The translations under genes and the position numbers were made by a program. From Streptomyces sp. MP131-18 (GTDB lineage: Bacteria; Actinomycetota; Actinomycetes; Streptomycetales; Streptomycetaceae), in assembly GCF_001984575.1 (NCBI RefSeq), contig NZ_LZNS01000001.1:2326674-2390673 (forward strand): DNA of 64,000 nucleotides, in the 5' to 3' direction. The notes beneath the pieces were generated by a model that had not been told where the DNA came from, did no database searches, and saw only the letters and a list, made by a program, of their open reading frames with translations. Of this stretch, positions 18,807 through 34,322 are shown in pieces. Position 1 is the stretch's first letter, and every line of letters starts with the position of its first letter.

Positions 18807-19036
18807 GCGCCGGCCGCGGCGTGCCCGGCGATGATGCCGAGCACGTCGCCCACGGTGCCGGCCTCGTGCAGCTCCTCCTCGGTGATGGTCAGCCCGTGCC
18901 GCTGCTTGAGGATCAGCACCAGCTCGGCGATGCCGAGGGAGTCCAGTCCCGCCTCCTCCCGGCCCGCCTGCTCGGTGATCTCCTCCTCGGGCACCCCCAT
19001 GGAGACGAGAGCGGCCTTCAGATCGTCGAATGACAT
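18803..19036 (-). CDS. Acyl carrier protein
   Basis: A 77-residue acidic four-helix carrier protein. The phosphopantetheine serine is in GLDSLGIAEL (about residue 37). ATG 19036 has GGAGG 5 bases upstream, itself inside the end of the terpene-cyclase-like gene, whose reading frame runs 19 bp into the ACP gene. It overlaps the ketosynthase gene by 4 bp. A dedicated ACP beside a lone FabF-type synthase implies a tethered acyl intermediate specific to this cluster. Confidence 0.92.
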   Translation of the reverse strand: MSFDDLKAALVSMGVPEEEITEQAGREEAGLDSLGIAELVLILKQRHGLTITEEELHEAGTVGDVLGIIAGHAAAGA

Positions 19037-20649: not shown

Positions 20650-20842
20650 GGGTGACTCCACGGAACGGCGCGGCCCGATGGACCGCGCAGAAGGAACAAC
20701 TGGCTTGGCATTCCGAGGAGTTGAGGATGATCACCCGGGCTGCGCATCCATGAGAGCACAGCCGTGGACACCGGATGGCCGACGGCCGACTATTCCACTC
20801 CATAGGGTGAACAGACCGTCACACAGCGCACGCGGGGATCGT

Positions 20843-21514: not shown

Positions 21515-21612
21515 ACCCCGAACGCTACAAAGTCCCTCCGCGCCGGAACGATGGGGGATGCCTCACGGGAACCCTGCGGAAAACCGCAGTCCGCCGCCGC
21601 GCCCCGTTCGGA

Positions 21613-21628
21613 TAGCGTCGGCGGCGTG
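21613..21628 (+). promoter_or_regulatory. Leaderless promoter -10 box TAGCGT for the histidine kinase
   Basis: TAGCGT (21613-21618) fits TAnnnT and lies exactly 7 bp before the GTG at 21626. No ribosome site precedes that GTG, so the transcript probably starts at the G of the start codon. The -35 region is weak. Confidence 0.5.
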
Positions 21629-22714
21629 AAGAAAGCCCTGCACCGCTGGCTGCGGATGGCCACCGGGCTCGCCATGGGCGCCGCGACCGTGCTGCCGGAC
21701 CTCCTCGTCCTGTACGCCGCGCTGCTGCTGCGGCGGCGGGGCGATCCGGCCGCGGTGCGGCTGGCCGGGTGGGAACGCGCCAGGGTGACGCGCCTGCACG
21801 GCGACGTCCCGGAAGCCACCGCACCACCCGAGCCGCGCGCCGCCCTGGCCTACCTGGCGGCGCGCCTGCCGGTCGGACTGCTGGCCGGTCTCGTGCTGCT
21901 CTCGGCGCTGGTCGGAGCCGCCTACGCCTCGACGCTCGGGTGGCTGTGGTTCTGGGCCGACCACTTCTGGGCCAACGTTTTCTCCGGCGTCGGCGGCCTG
22001 TTCCTGCTCTTCCTCGCCGCCTACGCCGTGCAGGCCGTCGCCGCCCTGGAGGCCGCCCTCGTGCGGCGCTTCCTCGGCCCCACCCGGCAGGAGGCGCTCG
22101 AGCGGCGCATCGAGGAGCTGGCGGAGAGCCGGGCCGGCGTGGTGGCCGCCGTGCACGAGGAGCGCCGCCGGATCGAACGCGATCTGCACGACGGCGTGCA
22201 GCAGCGCCTGGTGGCGCTCGGCATGCTGCTGGGCCGCGCCCGGCGCAGGGGCGACACCGACGACCTGCTGGCGCAGGCCCACCAGCAGGCGCGGCAGGCG
22301 CTCGCGGAGCTGCGGGAGGTGGCCTGGCGGGTGTACCCGACGGTGCTGGACGAGGCCGGGCTGCGGGCGGCCCTCGAAGCGGTCGCCGAACGTTCCCCGC
22401 TGCCGGTGCGCCTGGACTACCGGCTGGCGGCCGAGCCGGACCGGCCGGTGGCGGCCGTCGCCTACTTCGTGGTGTCCGAGGCCGTCACCAACGCCGTGAA
22501 GCACTCGGGCGCCGCCGCCGTCGCCGTCCGCCTGGCAGGCGAGGGGCCCGCGCTGACCGTGCGCGTCACGGACGACGGCCGGGGCGGCGCCGACCCGGCG
22601 GGCGGCGGGCTGCTCGGGCTGGCCAGGCGCGCCGCCGCGCTCGACGGGCGGCTGTCCGTGGCCAGCCCGGCCGGCGGGCCCACCGTGATCACCGCGGAGC
22701 TGCCGTGCGCGTGA
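21626..22714 (+). CDS. Sensor histidine kinase, HisKA_3 type
   Basis: A 362-residue kinase of the NarX/DesK class. Three hydrophobic segments occupy the first 170 residues. The phosphoacceptor is in RRRIERDLHDGVQQRLVAL (His about 190), and the HATPase N-box is SEAVTNAVKHSG with a later VTDDGRGGA. There is no large extracytoplasmic sensor domain, suggesting detection in or at the membrane. It overlaps the response-regulator gene by 10 bp, forming a standard pair. The GTG start is probably leaderless. Confidence 0.9.
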   Translation: MKKALHRWLRMATGLAMGAATVLPDLLVLYAALLLRRRGDPAAVRLAGWERARVTRLHGDVPEATAPPEPRAALAYLAARLPVGLLAGLVLLSALVGAAYASTLGWLWFWADHFWANVFSGVGGLFLLFLAAYAVQAVAALEAALVRRFLGPTRQEALERRIEELAESRAGVVAAVHEERRRIERDLHDGVQQRLVALGMLLGRARRRGDTDDLLAQAHQQARQALAELREVAWRVYPTVLDEAGLRAALEAVAERSPLPVRLDYRLAAEPDRPVAAVAYFVVSEAVTNAVKHSGAAAVAVRLAGEGPALTVRVTDDGRGGADPAGGGLLGLARRAAALDGRLSVASPAGGPTVITAELPCA

Positions 22715-23349
22715 TCCTGGCGGACGATTCGACGCTGCTGCGCGAGGGCCTGGTGCGGCTGCTCACCGAGGAGGGCCACGAGGTGACCGCGGCGGTCGGC
22801 GACGCCGCGGCGCTGCTGGCCGCGGTGGACCGCGATCCGCCGGACGTCACCGTGATCGACGTGCGGATGCCGCCGACGCACAGCGACGAAGGGCTGCGCG
22901 CGGCCCTCGACATCCGCCGCCGGTGGCCGGCGGTGGGGGTGCTGGTGCTGTCGCAGTACGTCGAGGGCCGCTACGCGACGGAGTTGCTGACCGGGGAGCC
23001 GGCGGGCGTCGGCTACCTGCTGAAGGACCGCGTGGTGGAGATCGACGAGTTTCTCGACGCGCTGGAGCGCGTCGCGGCCGGCCGTACCGCGTTCGACCCC
23101 GAGGTGGTGCGGCGGCTGCTGGCGCGCAGTTCGCACACCGATCCCCTCGCCCGCCTCACGCCGCGCGAACGCGAGGTGCTGCACGAGATGGCGCAGGGCC
23201 ACACGAACGCGACGATCGCCGAACACCTGTGGGTCTCGCGCAGCGCGGTGGAGAAGCACGTCAACGCGATCTTCGACAAGCTTCAGCTGCCAGGACCCGG
23301 CGGCTACAGCCGCCGGGTCCTGGCCGTGCTGCGCTACCTGGGCTCCTGA
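22705..23349 (+). CDS. NarL/LuxR-family response regulator
   Basis: A 214-residue regulator. The receiver domain has ADDSTLLREGL, the phosphorylated Asp in VTVIDVRMPP (about 54) and the Lys in YLLKDR. The DNA-binding HTH is LTPREREVLHEMAQGHTNAT and SAVEKHVNAIFDKL (about 150-190). GTG 22705 has GGAG 6 bases upstream. It is the partner of the kinase at 21626. The codons just after the recognition helix (LPGPGGYSRRVLA) are made of a 34-bp perfect palindrome, and its last 16 bp overlap the convergent phosphodiesterase gene. Confidence 0.92.
   Translation: MRVILADDSTLLREGLVRLLTEEGHEVTAAVGDAAALLAAVDRDPPDVTVIDVRMPPTHSDEGLRAALDIRRRWPAVGVLVLSQYVEGRYATELLTGEPAGVGYLLKDRVVEIDEFLDALERVAAGRTAFDPEVVRRLLARSSHTDPLARLTPREREVLHEMAQGHTNATIAEHLWVSRSAVEKHVNAIFDKLQLPGPGGYSRRVLAVLRYLGS
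23290..23323. terminator. 34-bp perfect hairpin inside the response-regulator gene end
   Basis: Arms CCAGGACCCGGCGGCT (23290-23305) and its exact complement (23308-23323) with a 2-base spacer. It lies 26 bp before the response-regulator stop and within 45 bp of the convergent gene's stop, so it may act as a two-way terminator for the overlapping convergent pair. Confidence 0.55.
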
Positions 23350-24719
23350 AGGCCCTGGAGCCCGAGCAGGAACGACTTGACTGCCGTGGCCGCGACCTCC
23401 CCGCCGTCCAGCGCGTCGGGGTCGGAACACAGCAGGACCGGCCGGTCCTTCTCGTCCTCGGGCAGGCGACCGTGGCTGCCGCGGACGCACGACGGGTCGA
23501 GCGGCACCACGTTCATCCGGTAGCGCAGGCCCAGCTTCTTGCGGGCCAGGGCCGCGGCGGCCCTGGCCTTGGCGAACCGGTCCGCCGGGTCGAAGAACAG
23601 CTCCGCCGGGTCGTAGCCCGGCTTGCGGTGGATGTCGACGATGGCCGCCCAGTCCGGCGCGGCCGCGTCGTCCAGCCAGTAGTAGTACGTGAACCACGCG
23701 CCGGGGTCGGCCACCGCGACCAGCTCGCCGGCGCGCCCGTGGTCGAGGCCGTGCCGCTTCTTGCCCGACTCGTCCAGCACCTCGGCGACACCGGGCAGCC
23801 CGGCCAGCACCTCACGCGTGCGCTCCAGGTCCTCGGGGCGCCGCACGTACACGTGCGCCACCTGGTGGTCGGCGACGGCGAAGGCGCGGGACACCCACGG
23901 GTCCAGGTACTCCATCCCGGCCTGCGTGTACACGTCGAGCAGCCCGGCGCGGCGCAGCGCGCGGTTGATGTCGACGGGCCGGTCCACGGGCGTGATGCCG
24001 TACTCGGACAGCACCACGACCGTGGCGTCCGCGGCCTGCGCCGCGTCCAGCAGCGGCCCGATCTCGGCGTCCAGCTCGCCCGCGGCGGCCCGCGCCTGCG
24101 GGCTGTCGGGGCCGAAGCGCTGGAGATCGTAGTCCAGGTGCGGCAGGTAGACCAGCGTCAGGTCGGGCCGCTGCGTGCGCAGCAGGTGCCTGGCCGCGGC
24201 GGCGATCCAGCGGGAGGAGGCGATGGACGCGGTGGGCCCCCAGTAGTTGAACAGGGGGAACGGGCCGTAGCGGCTGGTCAGTTCGTCGTGCAGCTCGGAC
24301 GGCCTGGTGTAGCAGTCGGGGTCCTTGCGGCCGTCGGCGTAGTAGATGGGCCGCGGGGTGATGGTGAAGTCGGTGTCCGCGCCCATCGCGTACCACCAGC
24401 AGACGTTCGCGACGGTGTAGCCGGGCCGCACGCGGCGCGCGGCGTCCCAGATCTTCTCGCCGCCGACGAGCGCGTTGTGCTGCCGCCACAGCAGCACGTC
24501 GCCGACGCCGCGGAAGTACCAGCCGTTGCCGACGATGCCGTGCTCGGCGGGCGGCGCGCCGGTGAGGAACGTGGCCTGCGCGGAGCAGGTCACGGCGGGC
24601 AGCACCGTGCCGAGCGGCGCGCGCGAGCCGCCGCGGGCGAGCGCGGCGAGGCGTGGCAGGTGATCGAGCAGGGCCGGGGTGAGGCCGACCACGTTCAGCA
24701 CGACGACCGGGCGGGTCAT
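23334..24719 (-). CDS. Nucleotide pyrophosphatase/phosphodiesterase family protein of the ebo operon
   Basis: A 461-residue cytoplasmic member of the alkaline phosphatase superfamily (type I phosphodiesterase/nucleotide pyrophosphatase). The nucleophile region is LPAVTCSAQATFLTGAPP (Thr/Ser about 44-50); metal ligands are in VYLPHLDYDLQRFG and VVLSEYGITPVDRP, and a later GRAGELVAVADPGAWF with DHGR. It is the last gene of the seven-gene minus-strand operon and overlaps eboE by 4 bp. Proteins of this family belong to ebo clusters (EboF-like by my reading). The real substrate is unknown; a phosphodiester or pyrophosphate intermediate of the pathway is likely. Confidence 0.8.
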   Translation of the reverse strand: MTRPVVVLNVVGLTPALLDHLPRLAALARGGSRAPLGTVLPAVTCSAQATFLTGAPPAEHGIVGNGWYFRGVGDVLLWRQHNALVGGEKIWDAARRVRPGYTVANVCWWYAMGADTDFTITPRPIYYADGRKDPDCYTRPSELHDELTSRYGPFPLFNYWGPTASIASSRWIAAAARHLLRTQRPDLTLVYLPHLDYDLQRFGPDSPQARAAAGELDAEIGPLLDAAQAADATVVVLSEYGITPVDRPVDINRALRRAGLLDVYTQAGMEYLDPWVSRAFAVADHQVAHVYVRRPEDLERTREVLAGLPGVAEVLDESGKKRHGLDHGRAGELVAVADPGAWFTYYYWLDDAAAPDWAAIVDIHRKPGYDPAELFFDPADRFAKARAAAALARKKLGLRYRMNVVPLDPSCVRGSHGRLPEDEKDRPVLLCSDPDALDGGEVAATAVKSFLLGLQGLQEPR

Positions 24720-25897
24720 GACAGCTCCTTGAGTCCGAGTCCGGTCAGCAGGTCGCGCGCGAGGGACAGTTCGGCGGCGATGCCGTCCGCGAGTCCCTCG
24801 GGCGTGCGGGGCCGCAGGGCCGGCGGCAGTACCTGCCAGGTGTAGGTCTCCACCTCCAGGTGGCGGGTGAGGGCCCGTTCGCCGCCGACCAGGCGGGTGA
24901 GGGCCTGCGTGAGGTGCGGCAGCGTCGAGGTCAGCGGCGGGTGCGGGCGGGCGTGCAGCGGGATGTGCAGGTGAACGCGCCAGGGGTCGCGTCCCGGCAG
25001 CGGCTCGGGCCCGAACAGGGCGATGTCCAGGTCGTCGTGGCCCAGGACGCCGCCCGGCGCCCGCTCCCGCGTCTGGTGCAGGAAGCGGGGCTCGGCGAAG
25101 TCGGCGAGCGCCGCGCGCACCGCGGGCTCCCCCGGGTGCTCGGCGTGCAGGGCCGCCGACAGCTGCGCCTTCACGACGGGCACGCCGCGCGCGGTCAGAC
25201 CGGCGATGGCGCGGTCCGGGTCCTCGAAGGCGGTGGCCAGGTGGCAGGTGTCCAGGCAGACCCCGACCCGGCTGCTCGGCGGCGCCCCGGGCGCCGTCAG
25301 CACCTCGGCGGCCTGCCCCGTGGTCTCCACGATGCAGCCGGGCTCGGGCTCCAGGGCGAGCCTGATGGAGCGGCCGGTGCGCTCCGCGAGTGCGTCGAGC
25401 CGTCCGGCCAGCTCGGTGAGGTGCGCCAGCGCCCGTTCCTGGTCCTGCGGTGTGAACGGGGTGCGCCAGGCCAGCGGCAGCGTCGAGATGGTGCCCTCCG
25501 GCTCGTCCCCGGGCAGCAGCTCGGCGAGGAGGCCGGCCAGGTCGGCGGTGTGGTCCAGGCGTTCGCGGCTGGTCCAGTCGGGCGTGTAGACGGCGTACTT
25601 GACGCGTTCGCCGCCGAACCCGCGGTAGGGGAAGCCGTTCAGCGTGACGACTTCGAGGCCGTGGCGCTCCAGGGCCTCGCGCAGGGTGCGGCGGGCGCCC
25701 GCGTCCGCCACCAGGGTGCGGGCCGCGTCACGGGCCAGCCACAGGCCGATGCCCAGGCGCGCGCGGTCGAGGCGCCGCCTGACCGGCTCGCAGTAGTCGC
25801 GCAGCTGCGCGAGGACGCCGTCGAGCGTCTCCGCGGGGTGGACGTTCGTGCAGTAGGCGAGGTGGACGACCGAGCCGTCGGGGTGCTGGAAGCGCAC
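24716..25897 (-). CDS. eboE: Metabolite traffic protein EboE (TIM barrel)
   Basis: A 393-residue xylose-isomerase-like TIM-barrel protein. The N-terminal LAYCTNVHPAETLDGV (about 13-28), LNGFPYRGFGGERVKYAVY and GVCLDTCHLATAFEDP are characteristic of EboE. The barrel ligands RLALEPEPGC and HIPLH suggest a divalent metal site. In cyanobacteria the ebo genes are needed for export of a scytonemin precursor to the periplasm. GTG 25897 follows eboB by 6 bp; the 3' end overlaps the phosphodiesterase gene by 4 bp. Confidence 0.85.
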   Translation of the reverse strand: MRFQHPDGSVVHLAYCTNVHPAETLDGVLAQLRDYCEPVRRRLDRARLGIGLWLARDAARTLVADAGARRTLREALERHGLEVVTLNGFPYRGFGGERVKYAVYTPDWTSRERLDHTADLAGLLAELLPGDEPEGTISTLPLAWRTPFTPQDQERALAHLTELAGRLDALAERTGRSIRLALEPEPGCIVETTGQAAEVLTAPGAPPSSRVGVCLDTCHLATAFEDPDRAIAGLTARGVPVVKAQLSAALHAEHPGEPAVRAALADFAEPRFLHQTRERAPGGVLGHDDLDIALFGPEPLPGRDPWRVHLHIPLHARPHPPLTSTLPHLTQALTRLVGGERALTRHLEVETYTWQVLPPALRPRTPEGLADGIAAELSLARDLLTGLGLKELS

Positions 25898-25903
25898 GGC
25901 GCC

Positions 25904-26764
25904 TCACCGCCCGGCCGGGGCGCCGCGCAGGATCGAGTTGCCCTCGAAACTCTCCGGCTGCTCGCGTCCGTCCAGCTCAAGACGGCCGCTCTGGCCGTAG
26001 AACTCCACCGGGTTGCGCCACAGCACCCGGTCCACGTCGTCGTCGGTGAACCCGGCGGCCAGCATGGCGTCGGCGACGCGGCGCGTCTTCAGCGGGTCGC
26101 TGCGGCCCCAGTCCGCGGCCGAGTTGACCAGCATCCGGTCGAGGCCGAGGCGGCGGAGCACCTCGACGGTGCGCCGCTCGTCCATCTTGGTGTCCGGGTA
26201 GACGGAGAACGCCATCCAGCAGCCGCTGTCCGCGGCGCGGTCGACGGTCGTCTCGTTCAGGTGGTCGAGCACGACGCGCTCGGGCGGCAGTTCGGACTCG
26301 GCGAGCACGGACAGGGTGCGTTCCAGGCCCGCGGCCTTGTCGCGGTGCGGCGTGTGGACGAGGGCGGGCAGGCCGTGGCGCGCGGCCAGTTCGAGCTGGG
26401 CGGCCAGCGCGTCGTCCTCGGCCGGGGTCAGCGAGTCGTAGCCGATCTCGCCGACGGCCACCACGTTGTCCTTCTCCAGGTAGCGCGGCAGCTCCTGGAG
26501 CACGGGCGTGCAGCGCGGGTCGTTCGCCTCCTTGGGGTTGAGGGCGAGCGTGCAGTGGTGGGCGATGCCGTACTGGGCGGCCCGGTAGGGCTCCCAGCCG
26601 AGCAGCGAGTCGAAGTAGTCCAGGAAGCTGGCGGTCGAGGTGCGGGGCTGGCCCAGCCAGAACGAGGGCTCCACGACGGCCGCCACCCCGGCCGCGCGCA
26701 TCCGCTCGTAGTCGTCGGTCGTGCGGGAGGTCATGTGGATGTGGGGATCGAAAATGCGCATCAT
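25904..26764 (-). CDS. eboB: TatD-family metal hydrolase (EboB-like)
   Basis: A 286-residue amidohydrolase-fold protein. The metal site starts with FDPHIHMTSR (HxH, about 6-11); further ligands are in AVGEIGYDS (Glu), LVHTPHRDK (His), VLDHLNE (His) and VNSAADWG (Asp). Such TatD relatives accompany ebo clusters. ATG 26764 (a double ATG) overlaps the eboA stop by 4 bp. The substrate is unknown; nuclease activity, as in TatD itself, should not be assumed. Confidence 0.85.
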   Translation of the reverse strand: MMRIFDPHIHMTSRTTDDYERMRAAGVAAVVEPSFWLGQPRTSTASFLDYFDSLLGWEPYRAAQYGIAHHCTLALNPKEANDPRCTPVLQELPRYLEKDNVVAVGEIGYDSLTPAEDDALAAQLELAARHGLPALVHTPHRDKAAGLERTLSVLAESELPPERVVLDHLNETTVDRAADSGCWMAFSVYPDTKMDERRTVEVLRRLGLDRMLVNSAADWGRSDPLKTRRVADAMLAAGFTDDDVDRVLWRNPVEFYGQSGRLELDGREQPESFEGNSILRGAPAGR

Positions 26765-27318
26765 GCCTCCGGGGCGGGCGCGGGCGGCGGGGAGAGGGCC
26801 AGGGCGTGCCGCACGTCGGCGGGCACGGGCCGTCCGGCGGCCGTGCGTTCCGCGGCGAAGTCGGTGAGCATCCTGGCGAGTTCGGGGTCGGCACGGTCGG
26901 CGAGGCCGGCGACCTCGGTCACGGGGACGTCGGTGAAGACGCACTTGAGGACGGCGTGCCGCCACAGGTGCTGGTCGAGGTGGCGGGCGGCGTAGGGGCC
27001 GACGGCGGCGGCGATCAGCCGCGGGTCGTTGGTGCGCAGCGCGTCCTCGACGAGCGGCAGGGCGTCGGCGCCGACCGGCAGGTGCGGCAGGGCGCGCAGC
27101 ACGGCGCGGCGCTCCGCCGCGTCGCCGTGCCGGTAGAGGCGGGCGGCGGTGGCGGCGTCGGCGCCCGCGGCGCGCAGCAGCGCCACCCGGACGGCGTCCG
27201 CGGCGGCGCGGCCGACGTGGCGGCCCGCGGAGGTGAACGCGGCCTCCCAGGCGTCGGTGCCCAGCACGCCGTCCAGCCAGGCGCGAGCGGCGGGGGTGAG
27301 GCTGGTCTCGGTCAGCAC
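26761..27318 (-). CDS. eboA: EboA-domain protein
   Basis: A 185-residue helical, HEAT-like protein. Recognisable parts are TPAARAWLDGVLG, AWEAAFTSAGRHVGR, and the family-typical TNDPRLIAAAVGPYAARHL and WRHAVLKCVFTDVPV (about 130-145). The function of EboA is not known. GTG 27318 begins directly after the TAA of the upstream isomerase gene, with no gap, so translation is probably coupled. The C-terminus is Pro/Ala rich. Confidence 0.85.
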   Translation of the reverse strand: MLTETSLTPAARAWLDGVLGTDAWEAAFTSAGRHVGRAAADAVRVALLRAAGADAATAARLYRHGDAAERRAVLRALPHLPVGADALPLVEDALRTNDPRLIAAAVGPYAARHLDQHLWRHAVLKCVFTDVPVTEVAGLADRADPELARMLTDFAAERTAAGRPVPADVRHALALSPPPAPAPEA

Positions 27319-28170
27319 TTAGCCGGCCTCCCGGTGCGCGGTGGTCAGGAAGTCGAGGGATCTGCGGGCGAGTTCGGGTCCGGCGTGGGAGTGGCGCGGC
27401 AGCTCGACGGAGACCAGGCCGCCGTATCCGGTGGCGGCGAGGGCGGCGAGCACGGGCGGGAAGTTGATCTCGCCCTCGCCCAGCGGCAGATGCTCGTGAA
27501 CGCCGCGCCGCATGTCCTCGATCTGCACGTGGGCGGTCCAGGGCGCGGCGGCGGTGACGCAGTCCGGGACGGGCACGGGTTCGAGGCAGTGGCAGTGCCC
27601 GAGGTCGAGGGTGAGGCGGACGCCGTCGAGGTCGCGGCGCAGCCGGTGGAACGCGGCGATGGTGTCGAGCAGCATGCCGGGCTCCGGCTCGACGGCCAGC
27701 GGCACCCCGGCCGCGGTGGCGAGGTCGAGCACCGGGGCGAGGGCTCCGGCGAGCCGCTTCCACGCCTCGGCCTCCGGAGTGTCGCGCGGCACCCGGCCGC
27801 TGAAGCAGTGCACCGCGGTCGCGCCGAGGTCGCGGCCGACGCGCACCGCGTCGAGGAGCAGCCCGGTGCGGCGCTCGCGGGCGGCCGGGTCGGGGTCGAG
27901 GAGGCTGGGGCCGTGCTTGGCGGTGGGGTCGAGTACGTACCTGGCGCCGGTCTCGACCGCGACGGCGAGGCCGAGGCGGTCGAGCCGGCGCGCGACCTGC
28001 GCGGTGCGGCGCCCGAGATCGGGGGCGCAGGGGTCGAGGTGCATGTGGTCGAGCGTCAGCGCCACGCCCTGGTAGCCGAGGTCGGCCAGCAGGGCGAGGG
28101 CGTCGGACAGGCGCAGGTCGGTCAGGCCGTTGGTGCCGTAGGCGAAGCGGGGCCGGCGTGGACCGGTCAT
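27319..28170 (-). CDS. Sugar phosphate isomerase/epimerase-type TIM barrel
   Basis: A 283-residue AP-endonuclease-2-like barrel. Motifs are FAYGTNGLTDLRLSDAL at the N-terminus, VAVETGARYVLDP, VPLAVEPEPGM (Glu ligand), LTLDLGHCH (Asp/His ligands) and HVQIEDMRRG with FVSVE-type LVSVELPRHSH. It is a second barrel protein besides EboE and probably acts on a sugar or cyclitol intermediate made from the Ino1 product; that is inference. ATG 28170 overlaps the UbiA-like gene by 4 bp. Confidence 0.8.
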   Translation of the reverse strand: MTGPRRPRFAYGTNGLTDLRLSDALALLADLGYQGVALTLDHMHLDPCAPDLGRRTAQVARRLDRLGLAVAVETGARYVLDPTAKHGPSLLDPDPAARERRTGLLLDAVRVGRDLGATAVHCFSGRVPRDTPEAEAWKRLAGALAPVLDLATAAGVPLAVEPEPGMLLDTIAAFHRLRRDLDGVRLTLDLGHCHCLEPVPVPDCVTAAAPWTAHVQIEDMRRGVHEHLPLGEGEINFPPVLAALAATGYGGLVSVELPRHSHAGPELARRSLDFLTTAHREAG

Positions 28171-29030
28171 GTGGGGGTGACCTTCCTGGACAGGCGCCGG
28201 GCGGCGGCCAGCGCCCCGAGCAGCACGGGCACGGCCTGCGGGCGGCCCGCGCGGGCGGCCAGTGCCGCCTGGAGCGGCATCAGGGCGGTCAGCCCGCCGA
28301 CGACGCCCTGCCGCACCCGGGCGCCGGTCGGCTCGCGGGCGGCGCGCAGCAGCGGGGGCGCGGCGGTCAGCAGGTAGGCGACCGAACCGGCGACCGAACC
28401 GGCGCGTTCCGCCCGGGGCGCGGGCGTGCGCCCGGGGGCGGCGACGGCCGCGGCGGTGCCGAGGGCGGCGGCCAGCGTGACCAGCGGCGCGGACCGCGGC
28501 CCGCCGAACGCCTCGTGCCGGGAGAGCGCCGTGACGGCGGCGGTGTGGGCGCCGACGACGCCCGCCGCGGGCAGCGCGCGGTGGGGCGCGCGGCCCGCGC
28601 ACGCGCCGAGGACGACGTTGAGGGAACGGGCCGCGCCCATCGCGGCGGGCCCGGCAGTGGTGTGCTTGACGCCCAGGTCGTAGGCCCAGGCGGTGGCGGC
28701 CAGCGCCCCGGCCGCGGCGAGGGCGGGCCGGGAGTGGACGGCGGCGAGGGTGAGCCCGGCGGCGGTGAGCCCGGCCGCCGCCGCGAGGGCCGCGGCCGGG
28801 CGGATGCGGCCGGAGGGGAGGGGGCGCGCGGGCCGTTCGCGCGCGTCGGTGTCGCGGTCGGCCCAGTCGTTGAGCGCCATCCCCGACCAGTACAGGCACA
28901 GGGAGGAACCGGCGGCCAGGGCCGTCCGCCGGAGCGGCGCGCCGCCCGCGGCGGCGGCACCGGCCACGATGTCGCCGGGGACGGTCAGCGCGGCCGGGCC
29001 GCGGACCAGCTCGATCCAGGCGCGGTTCAC
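28167..29030 (-). CDS. eboC: UbiA-family prenyltransferase (EboC-like; SCO3242-type)
   Basis: A 287-residue polytopic membrane protein. The first aspartate-rich motif is NDWADRDTDARERPARPLPSG (about 57-77, quoted in parts: NDWADRDTDA and RPARPLPSG), which binds prenyl diphosphate through magnesium. The second motif is weak (YDLGVKHT). GTG 29030 overlaps the ino1 stop by 4 bp (GTGA). UbiA-like proteins are fixed members of ebo clusters (EboC) and could attach a polyprenyl or diterpenyl carrier to the polar product of the upstream enzymes. Acceptor unknown. Confidence 0.82.
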   Translation of the reverse strand: MNRAWIELVRGPAALTVPGDIVAGAAAAGGAPLRRTALAAGSSLCLYWSGMALNDWADRDTDARERPARPLPSGRIRPAAALAAAAGLTAAGLTLAAVHSRPALAAAGALAATAWAYDLGVKHTTAGPAAMGAARSLNVVLGACAGRAPHRALPAAGVVGAHTAAVTALSRHEAFGGPRSAPLVTLAAALGTAAAVAAPGRTPAPRAERAGSVAGSVAYLLTAAPPLLRAAREPTGARVRQGVVGGLTALMPLQAALAARAGRPQAVPVLLGALAAARRLSRKVTPT

Positions 29031-30088
29031 GGCCTGGCCCGCAGCGTCTGCGCGAGGGTCAGCAGCTCCTCGTACTGCTCGCCGAGCGCGGCCGGGCCGG
29101 TGTCGGGGTCCTTGAAGAAGAAGCCGAGCCCCGGCACGGGCCCGGACATGCCGGTGGCGTGGGCGCGCGCGACCAGGCGGGCCAGGTCGAGCACCAGCGG
29201 TGCGGCGAGCGCGGAGTCGCAGCCCTGCCAGATGGTCTGGAGCACCATGCGGGCGCCGAGGAAGCCGTCGAACGCGACGTGGTCCCAAGCGGTCTTCCAG
29301 TCGCCGAGCGCGGGCACGTTGTCGATGTGCACGGTGCCCTCGGGCAGGTCCCCGAGGGTGTCGGCGAGGACGCGTTCCTTCCCCGCGTTCTTGGCCGCGG
29401 CGGCGGCCGGGTCGGCGAGGGCGGCGCCGTCGCCGCCGCCGAGCAGGTTGGTGCCGGACCAGGACCGCACGTCCAGGGCGCGCTGGGCGAACATCGGGGC
29501 CAGGGCGGCGCGCAGCAGCGTCTGGCCGGTCTTGCCGTCCCGCCCGGCGTGCGGCAGACCGGCGGCGAGGGCCCGTTCGGCGAGGCCGGGGCCGCGCATG
29601 CCGGTCGCGGGCGTGAAGTTGATGTAGGAGCAGCCGGCGGCGATGGCCGCGGCGGCGTAGCCGGTGCTGATCGCGGGGTCGGTCTCGGTGCTCGCCACGT
29701 TGACGACCACCGTGCGTTCCAGGCCGTGGCGGTGGGTGAAGTCGGCGATGTCGGCGGCCGGGTCGGCGCCCGGGTGCCTGATCTCGGCGTCGGCGGCGGC
29801 CAGTTCCGCGGCGATGGCGGCGGGCAGCCCGTGCGGCAGGACGCCCGCGGCGACGAGCTGTTCCGCGCGTTTGGGGACGGGGATGTCGACGATGTCGTGG
29901 CCGCCGACGACCAGCCGGTCGAGGTCGGGCAGCGCGCTGTCGGCGAACGGTGGCAGGGCGGTGACCATGCCGGTGGGCGGGGTGAGTCCGGCCGCAAGGG
30001 CGGCCCGCCCGGCGATGGTCGTGGTGGCGACGGAGCCGCGCGCGCCGATGAGCCAGAGGCCGACGCGCGCGGTGGATGCGGTTGTCAC
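29027..30088 (-). CDS. ino1: Inositol-3-phosphate synthase
   Basis: A 353-residue NAD-dependent synthase turning glucose-6-phosphate into inositol-3-phosphate. The NAD site is LIGARGSVATTTIAGR (about 13-28); signatures are VVVNVASTETDP, SYINFTPATG, GRDGKTGQTLLR and SWSGTNLLGGGDG with AKNAGKERVL, then DNVPALGDWKTAWDHVAFDGF. GTG 30088 has GGAGGAGGG upstream. It is the first gene of the operon. Its cyclase reaction is of the same chemical kind as that of EboD (a dehydroquinate-synthase-like sugar-phosphate cyclase), which I do not find here. Confidence 0.9.
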   Translation of the reverse strand: MTTASTARVGLWLIGARGSVATTTIAGRAALAAGLTPPTGMVTALPPFADSALPDLDRLVVGGHDIVDIPVPKRAEQLVAAGVLPHGLPAAIAAELAAADAEIRHPGADPAADIADFTHRHGLERTVVVNVASTETDPAISTGYAAAAIAAGCSYINFTPATGMRGPGLAERALAAGLPHAGRDGKTGQTLLRAALAPMFAQRALDVRSWSGTNLLGGGDGAALADPAAAAAKNAGKERVLADTLGDLPEGTVHIDNVPALGDWKTAWDHVAFDGFLGARMVLQTIWQGCDSALAAPLVLDLARLVARAHATGMSGPVPGLGFFFKDPDTGPAALGEQYEELLTLAQTLRARP

Positions 30089-30132
30089 GGGGGTGGCCCT
30101 CCTCCTTCGTTTTCGGGTGCCACGAAAGGGGG

Positions 30133-30173
30133 CCCCGGTGCCCGGCCGGGTTCGGCGCGGTCGGGCACCGGGG
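30133..30173. terminator. Perfect 12-bp stem hairpin before the ino1-ebo operon
   Basis: CCCCGGTGCCCG (30133-30144) pairs with CGGGCACCGGGG (30162-30173) around a 17-base loop. On the minus strand it is followed by CCCCCTTTCG. It lies about 134 bp after the ThuA gene and 45 bp before the ino1 start, so it is either the terminator of the upstream operon or a structured leader of ino1. Confidence 0.6.
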
Positions 30174-30272
30174 GGTTGCGACGGCGGGGTGGGGTTCGGC
30201 GTCACCACCGCGCCACCGTCACCGGCCGTGGGGGCCGGGTCCGTCGCCGCCGCCCCTCGCGGCGGAGACGGG

Positions 30273-30294
30273 TCTAGGGGACGGTTCTAGGGGA
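30273..30294. repeat. Tandem TCTAGGGGA motifs, 13-bp period
   Basis: TCTAGGGGA at 30273-30281 and 30286-30294 (minus strand TCCCCTAGA). AT-containing paired motifs in the 218-bp gap between ThuA and ino1; possible promoter or regulator site for ino1-ebo. Confidence 0.35.
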
Positions 30295-30306
30295 AACTCG
30301 CACTGC

Positions 30307-31662
30307 TCAGGGCAGTTCCTGTATGCGGACGTTGCGGAAGCTAACGGTGTCTTCCTCACCGTGGTTCTGGAGGCCGACGTGGCCCTGCGTCAGGCTACGT
30401 GCGGGATCGGTATTGGTGAAGTCGTTGATCAGGGTGCCGTTGAGGAAGATCTGAAGTCGCTCACCTTCGACCCGCAGTTCGTAGGTGTTCCACTCCCCCG
30501 GCGGGTTGAGGGCCGCGTCGCGGGCCTCGATGTCGGCGGACTGGAAGGTGTAGACGGACCCGGTGGTGCGTTCGGGCGCGTCCGTGGCGTCGATCTGGAT
30601 CTCGTAGCCGTTGTCCACGGCGGACCACGGGTCGTCGGAGGGCGGGAAGCCGATGAAGATGCCGGAGTTGTCGTCACCCTCCAGGCGCCAGTCCAGCTTC
30701 AGCGAGTAGGAGGCGAACTCCTGGGCCTCATACCACAGCATGCCCATGCCGCCCTCGGTGGTGAGGGTGCCGTCGTCGGCCAGCGCGAACTGGCCCGGGC
30801 CCGCCTGCGACCAGCCGTCGGTGCCGGTGCCGTCGAACAGCGAGGTGTAGCCGGTCTCCGGGCGGCAGTCGGCCTCGGTGACGCCGGCCGCCCAGCGGAT
30901 GCCGCCGAGCAGGTGGCGCACGAACTCCGGCTCCGTGAAGGACTCCGCGGTGTGGCCGCCGCCGGTGTAGAACGCCCGGCCGCCCTCGTACTCCTTGCAC
31001 CAGGCGATCGGGTGGTCGCCGTCCATCTCGCCGCCGGTGTAGCTGGACTCGTCGAGCGAGGCCAGCACGCGCGCGGACTCCCGCGGGTTGGTGCGGTAGT
31101 TGTACCACTCGTCGGTGCGCTGCCAGGTCTCGCCCAGGTGGGCGGTGGCGTCGTGCGCACGGTCCTCGACGTGCACCGTGGCTTCCTGAATGTGCGGATG
31201 CGACTGGAACAGCGCGCCCGCGAGCCCGTTGTACCACTCCCAGTCGTACTCGGTGTCGGCGGCGGCGTGGACGCCCACGTAGGCGCCGCCGTCGTTGATG
31301 TAGCCCTCGAACGCGGTCTGCTGGGCCTCGTCGAGCACGTCGCCCGTGGTGGAGAGGAAGACCACCGCCTCGTACTGGGCGAGGTTGTCGGCGGTGAACG
31401 CGGTCGAGTCCTCGGTCGCGGTGACCGAGAAGTTGTTCTCCGCGCCCAGGCCGGTGATCGCGGCGATGCCGTCCTCGATCGAGTCGTGCCGGAACCCGGC
31501 CGTCTTGGAGAAGACCAGCACGTCGTAGGCGGGGTCGTCGGGCGAGGCCACCGGATCGTCCGGGGCCGCCGCCGCGGCGGCGGTGGGCAGGGCCGCGGCG
31601 CAGATCACGCCGCAGACGGCCAGGCGGGCCAGCCGTTTGGGTTGCTTGGTCCGTTGGTGCAT
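30307..31662 (-). CDS. Secreted ThuA domain plus DUF1080 (3-keto-glycoside hydrolase-like) protein
   Basis: A 451-residue exported protein. After a signal peptide (residues 1-33, AALPTAAAAAAP cleavage region) comes a ThuA domain (about 45-255; VLVFSKTAGFRHDSIEDG, VGVHAAADTEYDWEWYNG, HPIAWCKEYEGGRAFYTGGG), a glutamine-amidotransferase-like fold. Residues about 285-451 form a DUF1080 jelly roll (FDGTGTDGWSQ, LKLDWRLEGDDNSGIFIG, GEWNTYELRVEG), a family shown to include 3-keto-disaccharide hydrolases. ATG 31662 overlaps the upstream dehydrogenase stop by 4 bp, so the two secreted proteins are made together, probably to oxidise and then split a glycoside outside the cell. Confidence 0.85.
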   Translation of the reverse strand: MHQRTKQPKRLARLAVCGVICAAALPTAAAAAAPDDPVASPDDPAYDVLVFSKTAGFRHDSIEDGIAAITGLGAENNFSVTATEDSTAFTADNLAQYEAVVFLSTTGDVLDEAQQTAFEGYINDGGAYVGVHAAADTEYDWEWYNGLAGALFQSHPHIQEATVHVEDRAHDATAHLGETWQRTDEWYNYRTNPRESARVLASLDESSYTGGEMDGDHPIAWCKEYEGGRAFYTGGGHTAESFTEPEFVRHLLGGIRWAAGVTEADCRPETGYTSLFDGTGTDGWSQAGPGQFALADDGTLTTEGGMGMLWYEAQEFASYSLKLDWRLEGDDNSGIFIGFPPSDDPWSAVDNGYEIQIDATDAPERTTGSVYTFQSADIEARDAALNPPGEWNTYELRVEGERLQIFLNGTLINDFTNTDPARSLTQGHVGLQNHGEEDTVSFRNVRIQELP

Positions 31663-34109
31663 CACTGACTCCCGGTGCCGAAGGTGAAGTCGTCGATGTC
31701 GAACAGTCCGCCGCCGCCGGTGGGACCGGTGAAGACCAGGTGGAGCGTGGTCGTCCCGGCGGGAAGATCGGTCAGGGACGTCGTGACGTCCTGGTAGACG
31801 TCCCAGCCGCCGGTGGGGGCCACGTCCACGGAGCCGAGCACGGTTCCGGTGGGCGAGTCGGCGCGTACCTCTATGGTGCCGCCTGCCCCGCCGGATGCGA
31901 CGCGTGCGGTGAACTCGGTTGCGTCGGCCAGCAGGTAGGGCGTGAACGAGATCCAGTCGCCGTTGTCGACGAACCCGACCGCCCGGCCGCCGTGCGCCGT
32001 CGCGTATTCGGTGATCTCGACGCCGCTGCTGTCGCCGAAGTGCTCGGCCTGGCGGGTGCGGGTCTGCGTGGTGACCTGGTCGTGCGTGGTCAGGCCGCCC
32101 GCGTCGGTGTACTCGGCGTCGAAGATCCCGAAGATGTTGGCGTTCGGGTCGTGTTCGCCGTCCGCCAGGGTCTGGATGGTGCCGGAGCAGCCGGTGGTGT
32201 CGGTCAGCTTGTGACCGTGGCTGTCGTGGCCGAGGACGAAGCTGAGGGTGACCTGCGAGCAGTCGATCTCGCCGTCCTCGGGGTCGGACACCTCGATCTC
32301 GAACGGCACCGCGTCGCCGAAGTCGACGAGCTGTCCATCGGCCGGGAGGATCAGCTCCACGGTGGGCGCGGTGTTGCCGACGTTGATCGGCACCGAGGCC
32401 GAGCCGGTGAGTCCGCCCGCGTCGGTCACCGTCAGTTCCGCGGTGTAGGTGCCGTCCTCCTCGTAGGTGTGCGACGGGTTCGGCTCGGTGGAGGTGTTGC
32501 CGTCGCCGAAGTCCCAGCTGTAGCTGATCTCGTCGCCGTCGGGGTCGTTGCTGCCCTCGGCGGAGAACGTCACGGCCAGCGGCGCGGGTCCCGAGGTAGG
32601 GGTGCCGGACGCCTCGGCGATGGGGGAACGGCCGCCGGTCACGTTCTCGATGCGGTACAGCGCGCTGTTCTCGTCGCCGTTGAAGTAGCCGGTGCCGTAG
32701 TCCAGCACGTACAGGGCGCCGTCGGGGCCGAAGGCGCTGTCCATGACCTGGGTGCCGCTCCAGGGGAACTCGCTGATCGAGTTGACTGTGCCGTCGGCCT
32801 GGAGGTCGATGGCCCTGATCCAGCGCCTGCCGTACTCGGTGGCGAAGAAGTTCCCGTCGTACTCCTCGGGGAACTTCACGGACGATTCGAGGTCCGGATC
32901 GTAGTGGTAGACCGGCCCGGCCATCGGGGACTCCGAGCCGTTGCCGAACTCGGGCACCGAATCGCCGTCGTAGGGAATCCACGCGGGCTGCGCGGGCGGC
33001 AGCTCGGTCAGCCCGGTGTTGTGGGGGGACTCGTTCACCGGGGCGTTGCAGTCGAACGTGGCGCCGGAGGCCCCGCTGCCGAAGTCGTAGTCGACGTAGG
33101 CGTCGTTGTCCCCGGTGCAGTAGGGCCAGCCGAAGTTGCCCGGGGCCGTGATGCGGTTGAACTCGACCTGCCCGCCGGGGCCGCGGCTGTCGGAGGCGGT
33201 GCCGGCGTCGGGGCCGTAGTCGCCGACGTAGACGATGCCGGTCTCCTGGTCGACGCTCATCCGGAAGGGGTTGCGGAAGCCCATGGCGTAGATCTCGGGG
33301 CGCGTGCCCTCGGTGCCCTCGGCGAAGAGGTTGCCCTCGGGGACGGAGTAGCTGCCGTCGTCGTTGACGGTGATCCGCAGTACCTTGCCGCGCAGGTCGT
33401 TGGTGTTGGCCGAGGACCGCTGCGCGTCGAAGGCCGGGTTGCGGTCGGCCCGTTCGTCGATCGGGGTGTATCCGTCGGAGGCGAACGGGTTGGTGTCGTC
33501 GCCGGTGGACAGGTACAGGTTGCCCTCGGCGTCGAAGTCGATGTCGCCGCCCACGTGGCAGCACTGGCCGCGGCTGGCGGGCACGTCGAGGATCCGCGTC
33601 TCGGTGCCGAGGTCGAGCTGGTTGCTCTCGTTCAGCACGAAGCGCGAGAGCCGGTTGACGCCGTCGAACGGCGCGAAGTCGCCCGCCGCGCCCTCGCCGG
33701 GCGCGTCCCCGCCCGGGGTGTCGAGCGGCGGGGCGTAGTAGAGGTAGACGAACCGGTTGTTCTCGAAGTCCGGGTCGACGCCGACGCCCTGGAGGCCCTC
33801 CTCGTCGTGGGCGTACACGTCCAGCGTGCCCGCGACGCTCGTGGTGCCGTTCGCGTCGGTGATCCTGACCGTGCCGTCCCTGGCGGTGTGCAGTACGGAA
33901 CGGTCAGGCAGCACGGCCAGCGACATCGGCTCGCCCATCTCGGGCTCGCCCTTGGCGAGGGTCACCTGCTGGAACTCGGCCGTGGGGGCCGGGTCTTCGC
34001 CCGGGGCCGCGGCCGCGGTCGACTGGGTGGTGGCCAGCGTGATCGTGCCTGCGATGGCGAGCACGCTGCCTGTCAGGGCGGCGAAAACTTTTCTTGTTCT
34101 CCTGTGCAC
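31662..34109 (-). CDS. Secreted PQQ-type sugar dehydrogenase with PKD and CBM6 domains
   Basis: An 815-residue exported protein. GTG 34109 has GGAGG 6 bases upstream and begins a twin-Arg-free basic signal peptide (RRTRKVFAALTGSVLAIAG). Residues about 50-490 are a soluble-glucose-dehydrogenase/HHIP-like beta-propeller (GLQGVGVDPDFENNRFVY, GDIDFDAEGNLYLSTGDD, AMGFRNPFRMSVD, GPDGALYVLDYG). A PKD domain follows (about 495-580, YSWDFGDGNTSTEPNPSHTY), then a linker beta domain and a CBM6-like carbohydrate-binding module (about 675-815, GFVDNGDWISF). PQQ use is inferred from the family; no PQQ synthesis genes are in the window. Coupled to the ThuA gene. Confidence 0.85.
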   Translation of the reverse strand: MHRRTRKVFAALTGSVLAIAGTITLATTQSTAAAAPGEDPAPTAEFQQVTLAKGEPEMGEPMSLAVLPDRSVLHTARDGTVRITDANGTTSVAGTLDVYAHDEEGLQGVGVDPDFENNRFVYLYYAPPLDTPGGDAPGEGAAGDFAPFDGVNRLSRFVLNESNQLDLGTETRILDVPASRGQCCHVGGDIDFDAEGNLYLSTGDDTNPFASDGYTPIDERADRNPAFDAQRSSANTNDLRGKVLRITVNDDGSYSVPEGNLFAEGTEGTRPEIYAMGFRNPFRMSVDQETGIVYVGDYGPDAGTASDSRGPGGQVEFNRITAPGNFGWPYCTGDNDAYVDYDFGSGASGATFDCNAPVNESPHNTGLTELPPAQPAWIPYDGDSVPEFGNGSESPMAGPVYHYDPDLESSVKFPEEYDGNFFATEYGRRWIRAIDLQADGTVNSISEFPWSGTQVMDSAFGPDGALYVLDYGTGYFNGDENSALYRIENVTGGRSPIAEASGTPTSGPAPLAVTFSAEGSNDPDGDEISYSWDFGDGNTSTEPNPSHTYEEDGTYTAELTVTDAGGLTGSASVPINVGNTAPTVELILPADGQLVDFGDAVPFEIEVSDPEDGEIDCSQVTLSFVLGHDSHGHKLTDTTGCSGTIQTLADGEHDPNANIFGIFDAEYTDAGGLTTHDQVTTQTRTRQAEHFGDSSGVEITEYATAHGGRAVGFVDNGDWISFTPYLLADATEFTARVASGGAGGTIEVRADSPTGTVLGSVDVAPTGGWDVYQDVTTSLTDLPAGTTTLHLVFTGPTGGGGLFDIDDFTFGTGSQ

Positions 34110-34322
34110 GCGCGTCCTCCGTTGAGCACGGGGTGGGGGGTTCAAGTCCTTCGCACAGGCGCGCGCCGCCGCGCCGGGGAACTACGCGACCGAGGGACGA
34201 GGGGAGGTCACGTGATCCGGAAGTGACCGGTACACAACAGGGACGGTAACGACTTTCTCCCTCAGTGGAAACCCCTTTGAAACAAGAAGCGCGAACTTCT
34301 TCCTCCGAAGGGACAAAGTTCA

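Follow-up and report, generated by a model that had tools for sequence, protein, structure and literature searches.

An ino1-headed form of the ebo operon in Streptomyces sp. MP131-18, in which an archaeal-type Ino1 paralogue may stand in for EboD

The ebo operon (eboABCDEF), described from eustigmatophyte plastids, Bacteroidota, Cyanobacteria and others (PMC5133447, PMC6282210), occurs in several phyla, and its product is not identified in the accessible parts of PMC5133447, PMC6282210 and PMC9235831. In Streptomyces sp. MP131-18, a stretch of 64,000 nucleotides (the window) carries an operon of this type on the - strand (30088-23334) that reads ino1-eboC-isomerase-eboA-eboB-eboE-eboF and holds no eboD. 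The question raised by this locus is what takes the place of EboD. Our answer, which is tentative and held with slightly less than even confidence, is that the ino1-type operon is a stable variant of ebo, in which the role of EboD falls to an archaeal-type Ino1 paralogue together with a second TIM-barrel isomerase, and a prenylated cyclitol-derived lipid is made for an extracytoplasmic step. The gene content and order, the exclusivity of ino1 and eboD, their swaps on separate backbones, the conserved catalytic residues and the neighbouring genes were observed directly; the substrate, the order of the steps, the prenylation of a cyclitol, the product and its purpose are what we infer.

The two cyclase genes were counted over 132 non-duplicate loci with EboB (L025 to L195). 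Here, ino1 was present in 103 loci, eboD in 10, both in none and neither in 19; in 16 of these 19, the contig breaks off immediately upstream of the first ebo gene detected. EboE was detected in 19 of the 396 genomes of the phylum sample (in 18 over the cut-off), and in these actinobacterial genomes the ebo genes were linked to ino1 in 17 cases, to eboD in one (G381) and to neither in one (G279), where the ebo genes look fragmentary. A survey of this kind had been proposed in a preliminary description of the window, which had named a missing link between ino1 and ebo genes in relatives as evidence against its own proposal; the link is present in related genomes, and the ino1 form is the usual actinobacterial ebo operon. 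The gene order recurs in the named Streptomycetaceae loci (the best 80 of 542 confirmed, all from this family) and in other actinobacterial families, and is therefore not a matter of chance. The Ino1 domain was found in 111 of the 118 class genomes, and 14 of 20 lower-scoring copies that were fetched lay in ebo operons. Among Streptomyces plasmid records, 29 matched EboE and 25 matched Ino1; a normal ino1 operon is carried by one plasmid that matched EboE but was missing from the Ino1 matches listed (L214).

The preliminary description had found no EboD in the operon, and had pointed to a separate, complementing eboD as the observation that would speak against its proposal. The search of the whole genome agreed with the first statement and yielded no such gene. 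Six EboD sequences from annotated plasmid clusters were made into a profile. The sole 3-dehydroquinate (DHQ) synthase found in the genome reached 146 bits on it, compared with 524-590 bits for four ebo-locus EboD sequences outside the build, and the possibility of an EboD elsewhere in the genome was rejected on these scores. A type II dehydroquinase-like frame lies just behind the DHQ synthase gene (reading of the translation), and the gene was therefore taken as aroB. A single DHQ synthase over the cut-off was also the rule in 11 further actinobacterial ebo genomes without a linked eboD (9 genomes; two in G150, three in G204), and four DHQ synthases fetched from these genomes scored 136-189 bits on the EboD profile, far under ebo-locus EboD.

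Loci outside Actinomycetota were drawn from plasmid records only, which makes a biased sample; one per genus or species was opened where several were alike. Ebo genes with an annotated '3-dehydroquinate synthase' and no ino1 were found in Azospirillum, Ketogulonicigenium, Roseivivax, Mycetohabitans, Aureibacter, Gloeothece (with EboB and EboD only in the stretch), Salipiger and two Deinococcus. In Gemmatirosa kalamazoonensis (Gemmatimonadota, L124), the gene of the extra isomerase (ISO), ino1, eboC, eboF, eboB and eboE stand together, and on haloarchaeal plasmids of Halocatena (L136), Halobaculum (L137) and Natronococcus (L139) ino1 and eboF lie beside eboB, two ISO-like isomerase genes and a UbiA gene. 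EboB and EboF were concatenated for 42 loci; on the resulting tree, the INO1 label required 6 changes (at least 4 of them forced by the starred branches), compared with a mean of 11.4 for shuffled labels; rows with neither cyclase are included in this count. Gemmatirosa (INO1) grouped with Deinococcus and G381 (all EboD) at 100/100, and the actinobacterial ino1 clade of 27 rows, two of them with neither cyclase, was separate at 98/100. INO1 and EboD are thus swapped on separate EboB+EboF backbones (Actinomycetota, Gemmatirosa, haloarchaeal plasmids), so that two unrelated cyclases share one slot. Together with their mutual exclusion (0/132 loci with both), this argues that Ino1 and EboD serve the same step, the swap being the strongest evidence obtained for it. 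The preliminary suggestion that Ino1 fills the step of EboD was borne out to this extent; inositol phosphate is a candidate for the product of Ino1. A search of phage records with Ino1 gave no match. As a separate observation, the ebo genes of Mycetohabitans, Aureibacter and Gloeothece (L128, L129, L130) have as neighbours the genes of a ferritin-like protein (PF12902, tested in L130) and of a conserved hypothetical protein.

Two Ino1 genes were found in the MP131-18 genome, the copy in the ebo operon and a separate copy that is closest to Mycobacterium tuberculosis Ino1 (1gr0, E = 6.8e-180), i.e. of the mycothiol type. For the ebo copy, the nearest solved structure was that of Archaeoglobus (1u1i, E = 2.3e-52, vs E = 3.2e-7 for 1gr0). 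In the Ino1 tree, the ebo clade (91/99) joins haloarchaeal sequences at 83/89 and is set apart from the mycothiol type by a branch of 100/100. This separation, the score on TIGR03450 (31.7 bits, cut-off 638) and the separate mycothiol-type copy led us to reject the ebo Ino1 as the mycothiol enzyme. In the numbering of 1u1i, no variation was seen at Lys274, Lys278, Lys306, Lys367, Asn255, Asp225, Asp261 and Asp332 among 101 ebo Ino1 rows, which count the window gene twice. The same residues are kept in three haloarchaeal rows, Gemmatirosa and 33 mycothiol rows, with one exception at Asp225 in a mycothiol row. With these residues, the ebo Ino1 is probably a working cyclase.

The ebo Ino1 has the Pfam domains and the catalytic lysines of myo-inositol phosphate synthase (MIPS), and it lacks the Asn or Asp of that enzyme four residues past Asn255. 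In all 101 actinobacterial ebo rows (98/98 at 98.5% non-redundancy), position 259 of 1u1i is occupied by Gly, followed by a second Gly. Asn stands there in the rows of haloarchaea, Gemmatirosa and the mycothiol type, as well as in Ari2, 3cin and M. tuberculosis MIPS and in three ino1-ISO pairs (L177, L193, L210). Archaeoglobus has Asp, and the outlier L192 has Thr. We take this position to be that of yeast MIPS Asn354, near the substrate, although the literature search did not turn up the residue by name. The clade-specific Gly suggests that the product is perhaps something other than myo-inositol phosphate, and that compound cannot safely be named as the product.

The extra barrel isomerase listed in the preliminary description proved to be a regular companion of ino1: ISO occurs together with ino1 in 100 of the 103 ino1 ebo loci and is present in 1 of the 10 eboD loci (L126). 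ISO and EboA are fused in 2/112 loci, and a fusion of EboA to a xylose-isomerase-like domain in Actinobacteria is noted in the accessible text of PMC5133447. Ino1-ISO pairs were also found in non-ebo settings: the two genes adjoin each other in L210, and in L177 and L193 they have YcaO, PIG-L or methyltransferase genes nearby. Glu163, Asp189, Asp219 and Glu256 of ISO were kept in 120/120 rows. The AlphaFold2 (AF2) model of ISO, with a predicted local distance difference test score (pLDDT) of 94.1, could be aligned to the D-tagatose 3-epimerase-like MJ1311 (3wqo, Z 32.1, root-mean-square deviation [rmsd] 2.0, 257 residues) and to the isomerase Art22 (8z1i, 9koj; Z 29.4, rmsd 2.4, 255 residues), with many further xylose-isomerase-like structures close behind. 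Art22 is presumably an isomerase of a carbocyclic-nucleoside pathway, the literature search having turned up no paper on it. Identity of ISO to Art22 and MJ1311 is about 20%, and the common fold does not show a common substrate.

For the remaining proteins, conserved residues were counted over rows that include a few duplicates (L031/L100, L026/L196). EboB retains the full TatD-like metal set (H8, H10, E106, H137, H168, D218) in 135/135 rows; among solved structures, that of Archaeoglobus AF_1765 (3guw, E = 1.3e-26) comes nearest to it. The UbiA-like EboC of the preliminary description is a UbiA-superfamily protein by PF01040 (72.4 vs 34.2 bits) and NF045897, and falls below the cut-off of the EboC model NF035940 (126.8 vs 250 bits). 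Its first Asp motif, NDxxDxxxD (N54, D55, D58, D62), is complete in 118/118 rows. At the site that we take to be that of the second Asp-rich motif, T167, S170, R171 and E173 are found in nearly all of the 104 actinobacterial rows, and E173 in 12 of the 14 others. In three loci, each from a different family, the operon is flanked by a polyprenyl synthetase gene, which precedes ino1 in L025 and follows eboF in L037 and L042; this supports prenylation.

EboA gave a confident, all-helical AF2 model (pLDDT 95.4) that had no match in the PDB at E <= 0.001; the top rows, with E of 0.45 and above, held many helical-repeat proteins. No function follows for EboA from such a model, and no enzyme signature was found in it. 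EboF passes PF01663, and the two-metal ligand set of type I phosphodiesterases (nucleotide pyrophosphatases/phosphodiesterases), which we assume to consist of Asp, Asp-His, Asp-x3-His and His, is incomplete. The nucleophile Thr44 (130/130), Asp196 (131/131) and His416 (130/130) are kept in the rows with a residue there. The other canonical ligand sites hold Val11 (130/130), Gln200 (128/131), and Glu239 and Tyr240 (131/131 each), across phyla; in the alignment to phosphonoacetate hydrolase, Glu-Tyr stands in place of Asp-His. The preliminary description had assigned to the phosphodiesterase a trimming of the product; with a metal site altered in nearly all sequences, this step is not to be assumed.

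The features are listed in Table 1. Families were called by Pfam and NCBIfam models at curated cut-offs. All seven genes of the operon are open, with start and stop codons, and were found where the preliminary description had placed them, with their families over the cut-offs. Its claim of packing by 4-bp overlaps holds for 4 of the 6 junctions; the isomerase gene and eboA abut, and eboB and eboE are separated by 6 bp. Homologues of EboA, EboB, EboE and EboF, as in the canonical six-gene ebo operon, are adjacent in one operon, the assignment of EboA resting on the domain model (68 vs 320 bits on the EboA family model). A scan for sigma-70 promoters in 23000-31000 gave 0 sites, with 0.2 expected, and so carries no information. 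At 21551-23349 on the + strand, convergent with the operon, a family-tested histidine kinase gene precedes a frame that by eye resembles a response regulator. Downstream, at 18803-20661 (-), the translation shows, to the eye, a repeat protein that resembles terpene cyclases and a small sequence like that of a carrier protein.

Table 1. Coordinates and family matches of the operon genes and the two genes upstream of ino1 (window positions)
Feature	Position	Strand	Family match
ino1, inositol-3-phosphate-synthase-like cyclase, archaeal type	29027..30088	-	PF07994 112.8 bits, PF01658 101.9 bits, over cut-off
eboC-like UbiA-superfamily prenyltransferase, SCO3242 family	28167..29030	-	NF045897 332.7 bits, cut-off 260
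ISO, xylose-isomerase/D-tagatose-3-epimerase-like TIM barrel, ino1 partner	27319..28170	-	PF01261 140.7 bits
eboA, all-helical protein	26761..27318	-	NF035938 (EboA domain) 174.8 bits, cut-off 50
eboB, TatD-like metal-dependent hydrolase	25904..26764	-	PF01026 63.7 bits, cut-off 27
eboE, TIM-barrel 'metabolite traffic protein'	24716..25897	-	NF035939 420.9 bits, cut-off 250; PF01261 also over cut-off
eboF, type I phosphodiesterase/alkaline-phosphatase fold, altered metal site	23334..24719	-	PF01663 238 bits, cut-off 23
ThuA + 3-keto-disaccharide hydrolase protein	30307..31662	-	PF06283 271.8 bits, PF06439 154.4 bits
GSDH-PKD-CBM6 protein, quinoprotein-type beta-propeller	31662..34145	-	PF07995 137 bits

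The gene of the ThuA protein precedes ino1 at a distance of 218 bp and is itself preceded by the GSDH-PKD-CBM6 gene, all on the - strand. Both proteins have signal-peptide-like starts (by eye) and are hence called secreted-type; the GSDH protein of the window aligns to soluble quinoprotein glucose dehydrogenases. Of the Streptomycetaceae loci, 56 extend 3.3 kb or more upstream of ino1. GSDH, ThuA and DUF1080 matches were obtained in 55 of them, and lie directly upstream where the gene order was read; the exception (L054) has a weak ScyE-like match (26% identity) downstream. These loci are related, so the count stands for far fewer than 55 independent events. Outside this family, ten actinobacterial loci have 6 kb or more of upstream sequence, and GSDH was present in seven of these. 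Of the 118 class genomes, 86 carry GSDH genes, from 1 to 17 each (8 in MP131-18), and in the genomes richer in GSDH a neighbour of this kind within 9 kb would arise by chance at about 2 to 7 percent of loci; in the two genomes with 17 GSDH genes (L182, L195), none lies beside the operon. No PqqE over the cut-off was found in the genome, a weak negative from a search in which 0/14 control genomes passed either (no positive control) and other pqq genes were not searched; pyrroloquinoline quinone (PQQ) may be scavenged.

In other loci the neighbours are of related kinds. On the Streptomyces plasmids L132 and L145, a ScyD/ScyE-family gene lies directly upstream of ino1 and a multicopper oxidase gene further downstream; the ScyE-family protein of L132 scored 243 bits on NF033206 and gave no match in a PDB sequence search. 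Gemmatirosa has two DUF7133/TIGR02604-like propeller proteins, one of them over both the TIGR02604 and the GSDH cut-offs. By annotation, Natronococcus has a PQQ-dependent sugar dehydrogenase (the first 375 residues gave no such match), Salipiger a PQQ dehydrogenase, Halocatena ThuA and Haladaptatus DUF1080. In the clustering of neighbours, open reading frames were picked by G+C content at third codon positions (GC3); some antisense frames were mis-assigned, and two recurrent clusters were dropped as likely artefacts.

On these observations, the following route is proposed. Ino1 would cyclise a sugar phosphate by oxidation dependent on nicotinamide adenine dinucleotide, aldol closure and reduction, a step supported by the catalytic residues present and by the replacement of EboD. 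ISO, and perhaps also EboE, might then rearrange the cyclitol phosphate or a neighbouring sugar, and EboC would join a prenyl chain to the cyclitol at the membrane. EboB, with its intact site, could act as a metal hydrolase at some point in the pathway, EboA may be a helical accessory, and EboF a remodelled phosphatase-fold protein. The prenylated cyclitol-derived product would be used in an extracytoplasmic step by a secreted-type partner encoded next to the operon (GSDH with ThuA; ScyE-like elsewhere). A bolder extension, to which we give little credence, is that the ebo route leads to a prenylated cyclitol-derived redox lipid or cofactor needed by secreted beta-propeller oxidoreductases (GSDH, ScyE, TIGR02604-type, PQQ-type), the cyclitol coming from either of the unrelated cyclases, Ino1 or EboD; as part of the same long shot, a ring of the inositol or valiolone type is pictured as being dehydrated to give the compound a quinone-like character.

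The same neighbours bear on the reading given in the preliminary description and in the published cyanobacterial model, in which a carrier, either the product of the pathway or the pathway itself, takes a metabolite from the cytoplasm to the exterior for a secreted enzyme to finish. The ScyD/ScyE-family genes beside ino1-ebo in the two Streptomyces plasmids fit such traffic, and so does the position of an EboE copy and of some ino1-ebo operons next to flavin adenine dinucleotide (FAD)-monooxygenase or polyketide-type genes. However, the seven-gene core contains no transporter, and the ATP-binding cassette (ABC), major facilitator superfamily (MFS) and efflux genes nearby vary between loci. The GSDH/ThuA partner points to sugar oxidation rather than to a pigment, and the localisation data are also compatible with the absence of a product needed by a secreted enzyme. 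We consider metabolite traffic rather unlikely, and it comes closest among the rivals.

Several observations weigh against the replacement of EboD by Ino1 and ISO in a cyclitol-lipid pathway. Neither cyclase was in view in L026 (= L196), L043 (G279) and L138, and ISO is missing from three of the 103 ino1 ebo loci (L182, L188, L195). L026/L196 is the second ebo copy of G128, which also has an ino1-type copy; it lacks ino1 and lies between P450 and FAD-oxidoreductase genes. The Streptomyces plasmids L211 and L212 carry only eboB-eboE-eboF in the stretch taken, and in L213 (Streptomyces sp. NBC_01244 plasmid) eboE stands alone, beside polyketide-type and FAD-monooxygenase genes. No Ino1 domain was found in the whole plasmid records of L211, L212 and L213; the plasmid records alone were viewed, and the missing genes may sit elsewhere in those strains, on chromosomes outside this view. 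The swap argument rests on few non-actinobacterial loci (one Gemmatirosa, three haloarchaeal), in which no eboA (L124), or neither eboA nor eboE (L136, L137, L139), was detected, and the Haladaptatus cluster (L138), of haloarchaeal type and otherwise alike, has no Ino1 in its whole record. No GSDH match was obtained in the untruncated actinobacterial loci L025, L027, L039, L041, L132-L135, L145, L182, L189 and L195. As to the chemistry, Gly259 could signify a reaction unlike those of both MIPS and EboD, and the function of Ino1 may differ between lineages, the Gemmatirosa and haloarchaeal copies keeping Asn259. Finally, EboC relatives farnesylated quinolines in vitro and were inactive on phenols and catechols (accessible text of PMC9235831), which would either weigh against a plain cyclitol acceptor or mean that the natural acceptor was off the panel.

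That last result is the ground of a reading in which EboC prenylates an aromatic or quinoline acceptor like Ubi-297, and Ino1 and ISO serve another branch or the neighbouring 3-keto-sugar genes. Ubi-297 and two homologues farnesylate 8-hydroxyquinoline-2-carboxylic acid (PMC9235831, as far as accessible), and in several actinobacterial loci sugar ABC, Gfo/Idh/MocA, ROK and GSDH genes lie beside the operon, the nearest model of the neighbouring Gfo/Idh/MocA protein being levoglucosan dehydrogenase (below the cut-off of that model). The acceptors tested were a chosen panel and not the natural acceptor, and the sugar genes differ from locus to locus around a seven-gene core that hardly changes, which marks the core as the unit; we consider this reading improbable, somewhat more so than metabolite traffic. 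In a last reading, the least probable of the three, Ino1 provides plain myo-inositol phosphate, to be used in phosphatidylinositol, mycothiol or osmoprotection, and its gene is only co-regulated with those for an unrelated ebo product: the MIPS Pfam domains and catalytic lysines are retained, but the genome has a separate mycothiol-type Ino1, and the ebo copy excludes EboD, swaps with it on separate backbones and carries the clade-specific Gly (101/101).

Replacement of EboD by Ino1 and ISO within a route to a prenylated cyclitol-derived lipid is therefore the reading that we keep. The prenylated cyclitol offered in the preliminary description is not new in itself: an isoprenoid-cyclitol idea is already printed for eboD-type operons (PMC5133447, accessible part), and what is added is its extension to the ino1 form, as an inference. 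In open-licence literature (text without figures), searches on ebo/ino1 names did not find the ino1 form of the ebo operon or its exclusivity with eboD described; the same searches, aimed at these names and not at each point, likewise gave nothing on the clusters of haloarchaea, on the Gly-Gly stretch or on the metal site of EboF. Parts of the picture may have been noticed earlier, since Figure 3 of PMC9235831 draws Saccharomonospora ebo clusters and PMC5133447 notes the EboA fusion, to judge from the accessible parts of both. A second, unrelated cyclase in the slot of EboD would say that the ebo pathway needs a cyclitol. Inositol chemistry then becomes a testable source for the ebo product in tractable Streptomyces and a lead to the building block of the compound, secreted-type beta-propeller sugar dehydrogenases and ScyE-like proteins are indicated as candidate ebo partners, and two specific features, the altered metal site in EboF and the Gly-Gly stretch in Ino1, can be tested cheaply.

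Among known systems, the closest to the cyclase are the archaeal MIPS 1u1i and the MIPS paralogue Ari2 (6k96), titled five-membered-cyclitol-phosphate synthase in the PDB. Both have the catalytic lysines and Asn255 in common with the ebo Ino1; they differ from it at position 259 (Asp in 1u1i, Asn in Ari2 as in M. tuberculosis MIPS and 3cin, Gly in the ebo form). The case of Ari2 indicates that MIPS homologues can work in natural-product pathways (PMC11348189, accessible part). In Streptomyces coelicolor, SCO3243-SCO3242 are listed with the calcium-dependent antibiotic (CDA) cluster (accessible part of PMC3610822) as consecutive tags annotated as myo-inositol phosphate synthase and transferase, and SCO3242 names the family of the window prenyltransferase; from the annotation of these tags alone, a relative of the ino1-ebo genes might sit in the well-known CDA cluster. 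With eboABCDEF itself, the MP131-18 operon shares homologous EboA, EboB, UbiA-like EboC, EboE and EboF, the tight operon and a like logic of cyclitol and prenyl chain; it differs in the absence of EboD, in the presence of ino1 and the extra isomerase, and in a prenyltransferase of the SCO3242 family, under the EboC cut-off.

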